Shown piece after piece: positions 33,225 through 34,228 of a stretch of DNA of 64,000 bases. The notes below the pieces were generated by a model that saw only the letters and a program-made list of their open reading frames with translations, ran no database searches and had not been told where the DNA came from. The DNA is from Ecytonucleospora hepatopenaei (lineage: Eukaryota > Microsporidia > Enterocytozoonidae), in assembly GCA_026692725.1 (NCBI GenBank), contig JAPMUG010000009.1, forward strand, positions 1-64,000, in the 5' to 3' direction. The stretch's first letter is position 1. Every line of letters begins with the position of its first letter. The translations under genes were made by a program, and so were the position numbers.

Positions 33225-33506
33225 TTCTATATCATTATATGATAATAATATATTATTATATATATTACTATATAAATTACTATTATTTAATATATTACCA
33301 TTACTTAATATATTATTATCATTTAATATATTACTATTATATATATTACTATTATCATATATTTCTATTCTTCTCTTTATCTCTTCTATTATCTTATTGT
33401 TATATATGTCTATTATACTTATACTACTTATTACATATGATAGTATATTACTATTATATATATTATTTAATATATGTTTTGATTTTTTTTTGGGAGAGGA
33501 GTGAGA
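33225..33506 (-). other. Open upstream extension of the MOT1 ATPase frame
   Basis: Same frame as the ATPase and free of stops. It includes [13 protein letters not shown] and [20 protein letters not shown], the latter fitting the linker found just before the SNF2 domain in MOT1. It ends at a TAA (33507-33509) inside the G/T-rich tract. This supports MOT1 having once been a single gene. Confidence 0.5.
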
Positions 33507-34228
33507 TTAGTTTAATTTTTTATATGGTTGAATTGAGTTTTTGTATTTGTTTTAATGTTGTTTTAAGAGGAGGTGGGTGAGAGAGTGGGTGGTGTATATA
33601 GTGGTTGTGTGTTGGGTTTTTTGTTTATAGGTGGCGGTTCTTTTGAGTGTTAATATGTAGGGAAGGAGAAGGAGGAGGGGAGTGGGGATATGTGGGGTGG
33701 AGAGATGTGGGGGGGGTATTAGGAGACTGAGGTCTTTTTGTATCTCTCTTGGTTTTTTTTAGTTTTTTAAGTTTGTAAGATTTTGTGTGGTGTGTGGTTG
33801 TAGGGGTGTGGGTAGGTGTGTTGTGGGTGGTGTTGATGTTTTTGTTTGTAGGGGGTGGTTTGTAGAGTTGTTGGTGTTGGTGTTTTTTTGTGGGATATTA
33901 GATATTGTGTTTGTTTGGGTTTGTTTATTGGTGTTGTGTGTGGGGTTGTGGTATTTGTGTGTTGTGTGTTGGGGTAGGTTGGGGTGGGTTTATGTGGTGG
34001 GTATAGTGGGTGTTGTGTGTATGGTATTTGAAGTGGTAGGGTGTGGTGTGATGGTTGTGTGGGTGGTGATGGGGTTGATAGTGTTGAAGTGTGTGGTTGG
34101 AGGGTTTTTTGTGGTGGTTTTAGAGTTATTTGTTTTTATATGAATATGAAGTTAGATTCTATGATAGTTTTAGATTTAATTAGTATGGTTGTTAGGTTTG
34201 TTTGATTTTGTGGTGGGGAGGATGTGGC
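33485..34228. other. G/T-rich, almost C-free tract between the two MOT1 halves
   Basis: On the + strand only seven C occur from 33481 to 34158, and none from 33749 to 34158 (410 bases). In 33961-34020 I count 31 G, 25 T, 4 A and 0 C. Flanking DNA on both sides is AT-rich, with C and G in similar low amounts. The block contains a G-run cluster (about 33676-33717). Long open frames here (for example 33787-34143, GTG-led, Val/Gly/Cys/Trp-rich) are by-products of the composition. I do not recognise the sequence. Confidence 0.85.

Follow-up and report, generated by a model that had tools for sequence, protein, structure and literature searches.

Excerpts of PMC9414165 report that nanopore reads carry strand-dependent miscalls of telomere repeats which are not seen in HiFi reads, and excerpts of PMC7229812 describe stretches of failed nanopore calls after inverted duplicates. 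TTAG telomeres are reported for Enterocytozoonida in excerpts of PMC13174016 and PMC12449221, and PacBio HiFi reads have been used to assemble genomes of this kind (PMC12558613, in excerpt). At title and abstract level, no published description of G/T-only blocks of the kind considered here was found.

We analysed a window of 64,000 nucleotides of Ecytonucleospora hepatopenaei DNA, the start of contig C13 in an assembly of 3,094,744 b and 13 contigs whose chromosome ends bear TTAG/TTTAG repeats. Like the telomere miscalls excerpted from PMC9414165, this assembly has true repeats turned into wrong letters by strand near telomeres. In that report the wrong letters form other regular repeats (TTAAAA, CTTCTT, CCCTGG), whereas here the repeats fade into two letters and one block lies within a gene, MOT1. 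With the inverted-duplicate failure, as excerpted from PMC7229812, the assembly shares a miscalled stretch beside good sequence, and a fold-back at the left end of contig C2 fits that pattern. Around the MOT1 block, however, no long perfect inverted duplicate was found (the longest arms listed in 31000-37500 are 46 nt, 72%), and a fold-back as its cause found no support.

The block between the two halves of MOT1

Matches to MOT1 are given below on the relative P0123 (1282 aa), which was used as the query against the 3.09 Mb assembly and gave 21 matches.

34229 to 36781, minus strand: MOT1 N-half (HEAT-repeat part), an ORF of 850 aa with abundant Asn/Thr repeats; its match on P0123 is aa 3-619.
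33476 to 34228, no strand assigned: block with much G/T and little C on the plus strand, very probably base-calling junk that replaces the middle of MOT1, judged by its composition, single copy, lack of encoded MOT1 and likeness to the junk at the ends of contigs C1 and C2.
31167 to 33475, minus strand: MOT1 C-half (SNF2 ATPase part), in a frame other than that of the N-half; matches P0123 aa 734 to 1233.
31024 to 31188, minus strand: last MOT1 piece, in a third frame; matches P0123 aa 1227-1281.

The N-half resembles E. cuniculi MOT1, and the C-half resembles structurally known SNF2 chains, Chaetomium Mot1 among them. The HEAT part and then the SNF2 ATPase part, the order of MOT1/BTAF1, are present on one strand, as in microsporidian MOT1/BTAF1 (E. 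cuniculi 3oc3; relatives P0123-P0125). In contrast to these proteins, the gene is inflated by Asn/Thr repeats, P0123 aa 620-733 have no match in the assembly, and the reading frame is broken at the block and again near the C-terminus. The last piece, out of frame with the rest of the C-half, may reflect an indel error or a real break. The N-half ORF has its stop codon at the block edge, and the C-half frame is open from 33500 to 31167 on the minus strand. These ORFs confirm the original prediction that the block sits between the N- and C-halves of MOT1, with the C-half frame entering its edge.

Base counts over 33452-34228 (777 b) were A 123, C 9, G 293 and T 352, and the C-free run spanned 33749-34158 (410 b; T 196, G 167, A 47). 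The near-absence of C on one strand, with none in 410 bases, was thus upheld by count, while the share of G, first put at about half, was slightly lower at 38-41% in the block and the C-free run. GC skew rose up to 1.0 in 200-b windows, and the flanks had about 11-25% GC; on the plus strand the MOT1 flanks contained 48-49% T, 34% A, 8% G and 9-11% C. At 11-13% G and C in the window, the block composition is not attributable to chance. The block is uneven: 33541-33650 and 33731-34150 passed a strict G/T test, and the stretch between them is richer in G and A, with most of the nine C of the block in or near it. At its edges, G climbs from about 33480 and ordinary sequence is regained by about 34240. 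No second G/T block was found elsewhere in the window; its other long runs lacking C or G belong to the telomere (1-457 and 539-3025) and to an A/T-only satellite (about 30280-31060), or are short and AT-rich.

The few stops and partly open reading of the A/C-rich minus strand could suggest an intron or a coding stretch there. The three frames of that strand nevertheless contain 6, 9 and 7 stops, the two MOT1 halves lie in different frames, and an intron would not provide the residues that are missing from MOT1 (below); we regard this explanation as having almost no chance of being right.

A MOT1 segment absent at the block

MOT1 itself accounted for 13 of the 21 P0123 matches (C13 31024-36778), which covered aa 3-619 and 734-1281. 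The remaining eight, on C5, C8 and C13:81846-83186, began only from aa 754 on with 27-43% identity, and were taken as probable other SNF2 proteins. P0123 aa 620-733 had no match in the assembly search. Judged by eye, the clear C-half match begins near aa 771, so the gap amounts to 114-150 residues. Of the relatives P0123-P0155 (33 in all), the alignment took in the 32 with lengths of 1150-1450 aa and omitted P0154 (763 aa). Within aa 643-733 most positions were filled in 24-32 of these 32, and aa 617-642 and a few other positions were poorly filled. Since aa 620-733 are unmatched here and mostly present in relatives, the block occupies the place of a MOT1 segment. The block had been said to split MOT1; this holds for its position between the halves and fails for the implied insertion, as the segment is absent there. 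At about 750 b, the block is longer than the missing 340-450 b counted on P0123, or than the roughly 470-620 b expected if the segment were inflated like the N-half (850 versus about 619 aa).

Public proteins contained no near-identical MOT1 of this species among the best 120 listed of 7828 and of 4258 matches, in which MOT1 relatives reached at most 53% identity, and the missing segment is therefore not directly visible. DUF3535 (PF12054) had no match in the assembly, but its 14 control genomes gave none either (0/14).

A real inserted element or a G/T-rich regulatory tract, making a broken gene of MOT1, would be in keeping with a single, contiguous block whose composition is unlike its flanks, and the further frame break near the end of MOT1 is what a pseudogene might show. 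Such DNA should have pushed the MOT1 segment apart, but the segment is missing at the site. There was also no second copy of the block in the assembly (one match, the block itself, in a search of the readable sequence that passes over simple repeats), no ORF of at least 150 aa within it and no Rfam match in the window, and the same texture recurs inside and outside telomeres. A tRNA scan of the window found nothing. The missing segment and the single copy tell against this reading, one of those first proposed, and we hold it to be highly improbable.

As written, the block showed no MOT1 in a frameshift-tolerant profile alignment (z=0.2 with 100 shuffles, -0.1 with 150 shuffles); five relatives, each scored on a profile built without it, gave z=15.2-49.9 for this region (60 shuffles each). 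A version of this test with the species' own background inflated the shuffle scores and was replaced. The original prediction had proposed a transition-tolerant comparison with MOT1. In a purine/pyrimidine alignment nothing matched (z=-0.8 and -1.0), with a power in this region too low for the result to count either way: positive controls reached z 1.7-19.3 without indels, 0.7-7.5 with 5% indels and -2.7 to 1.0 with 15% indels, and these weak scores with indels mean that the alignment cannot decide. Four other MOT1 pieces corrupted likewise scored 10.9-29.7, but came from better conserved regions.

A purine/pyrimidine codon rhythm was detected in 34200-33870 (shuffle p 0-0.016, depending on window size). 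The rhythm also appeared in telomere-derived junk at the left end of C1 (three of seven windows above 6; L003 5001-5240), but in 0/285, 0/29 and 0/27 windows of other junk. Its presence in telomere-derived junk makes it unspecific, and it was dropped as a trace of collapsed MOT1.

Tracts of the same texture at telomeres

A scan for G/T or A/C blocks covered 262,950 readable bases of the 3,094,744, taken from the window, from C1 and from parts of other contig ends. Four places had such blocks: MOT1 and the contig ends C1 left, C2 left and C2 right. A less strict scan returned in addition L006 8311-8470, a purine-rich stretch which on reading was not of this kind. We looked at 19 of the 26 contig ends, and C4 left was unreadable. 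Telomere repeats were present at 15 ends, three of which carry G/T or A/C blocks; C3 left, C3 right and C12 left had no telomere in the 3-6 kb seen.

At C2 right, about 1.1 kb of G/T tract (L031 811-1990) lies within a TTAG telomere, with a slow onset and a fast return. The telomere loses A over about 200 b and is followed by about 840 b of pure G/T (core 1021-1880: G.686, T.313, A.001, C 0), after which TTAG is back within about 80 b and continues to the contig end. A is lost first, then T: the share of T is.53 in the telomere,.54 in the onset zone and.31 in the core, where G rises to.69. At C2 left (L018 1871-2500), TTAG folds back near 1520 into CTAA, about 350 b ahead of the A/C block, and CTAA then fades to pure A/C within about 110 b; the block has one A per 4.09 b, compared with a telomere unit of 4.42 b. 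At C1 left, A/C-rich junk lies outside the telomere in the readable stretches (L002 2501-7500 and L003 5001-5240, the latter being 15001 to about 15240). It ranges from almost pure C/A to more mixed, its part from 15001 to about 15240 grades into the telomere, and a 1.5-kb piece of it had no second copy in the assembly.

Trinucleotide composition linked these tracts to the MOT1 block. The cosine to the C-free part of the block was 0.93 and 0.76 for the C1 junk, 0.78 and 0.71 for the onset and core of C2 right, and 0.63 for C2 left; it was 0.34 for telomere, 0.35 and 0.34 for the MOT1 flanks, and 0.44 for 26 kb of the window. In the C2 right and C2 left telomeres, known true letters are replaced by the same texture, as a base-calling failure predicts, and at C1 the texture stands outside the telomere. 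DNA beyond a telomere is unexpected of a chromosome, and so is telomere sequence that gives way to two letters and then resumes; of a read that has lost its signal, both are expected.

Real hypermutation of one strand by deamination was weighed against these tracts: A to G together with C to T on the plus strand, along roughly 700 b of MOT1 and in telomere patches. The letters observed in MOT1 would require both changes and nothing more; the codon rhythm persists in the block, and the onset zone of C2 right loses A while T stays. Pure deamination fails in the C2 right core, where T is lost as G increases, an outcome impossible by A to G and C to T, under which TTAG would keep its T at.53. The rhythm, moreover, is shared with telomere-derived junk, and the purine/pyrimidine alignment to MOT1, though of low power, found nothing. 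Strand-specific editing or deamination, also among the first suggestions, therefore does not fit C2 right, and we judge hypermutation to be very improbable.

The G/T-rich tracts within telomeres of the same assembly could point to an interstitial telomere-like tract, added where a break had occurred. Tandem-repeat rows inside the block have periods of 25 and 21 with 2-3 copies, among which no telomere-unit array was found, and the MOT1 segment is missing; this origin is improbable in the extreme.

The window has two further features at its own telomeric end. Within 1-540, TTAG turns into CTAA over about 90 b, a fold-back at the contig end, and a 30-bp satellite with 32.6 identical copies adjoins the telomere at 3025-4002, its unit being present also at several other chromosome ends.

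Origin of the block

Judged from the assembled sequence alone, the block is very probably a local long-read base-calling failure carried into the assembly, and not a biological element. What makes this so probable is that like junk occurs both within and outside telomeres of this assembly, at sites whose true sequence is known; the absence of a MOT1 segment at the block, together with the lack of any encoded there as written, also supports it. A base-calling or assembly failure was one of the readings offered at the outset, and the telomere cases and the missing segment both favour it. Most likely the gene itself is an intact, AT-rich MOT1 whose middle the assembly does not show. Read signal would have left the decodable range of the base caller for some hundred bases, and the caller would have emitted G and T for whichever strand was being sequenced. 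Too few good reads over an AT-rich, repetitive stretch may then have left the consensus uncorrected.

Several features of the MOT1 block stand as counterpoints to a base-calling failure. The block sits within the contig, some 33 kb from the end, and the three other places are telomeric. With A 12%, G 41% and T 48% its composition is less extreme than that of the telomeric cores (A 0-0.1%), part of it is G/A-rich, and its edges do not clearly show the gradual onset and quick return seen at C2 right. The block also exceeds the missing MOT1 segment in length, and the purine/pyrimidine alignment, whose power is low, gave no trace of MOT1. That the G/T-only tracts are real, through a process that rewrites one strand to G/T (A first, then T) at telomeres and in at least one gene, or that adds such DNA at breaks, seems to us very unlikely; if true, this would amount to DNA rewriting of a new kind.

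Homopolymer lengths were considered with regard to the sequencing platform. In 230 kb of the window and other contigs there were 398 A/T runs of length 7 and 45 of length 8, and a gene-poor part of the window showed the drop too. Markov sequences of order 3 and order 5 had 173 and 123 runs of length 8, respectively. As read from these run lengths, the drop hints at a nanopore platform. Two AT-rich phages (50 kb each) also show a drop, from 6 to 7 (ratios 0.13 and 0.24), so it is no proof of nanopore sequencing.

These results are a warning that the assembly carries contiguous, confident-looking junk in a conserved gene and at chromosome ends. The block would make MOT1 seem split or lost, and such junk would mislead scans for skewed or G-rich elements.

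Among the other genes of the window, two transposase ORFs lie near the chromosome end, one Tc1/mariner-like (DDE_3; 7134-8165, plus strand) and one IS1595-like (11914-12729, minus strand). MCM5 (50526-52580) is 57% identical to Nucleospora cyclopteri MCM5 and identical to a public protein.
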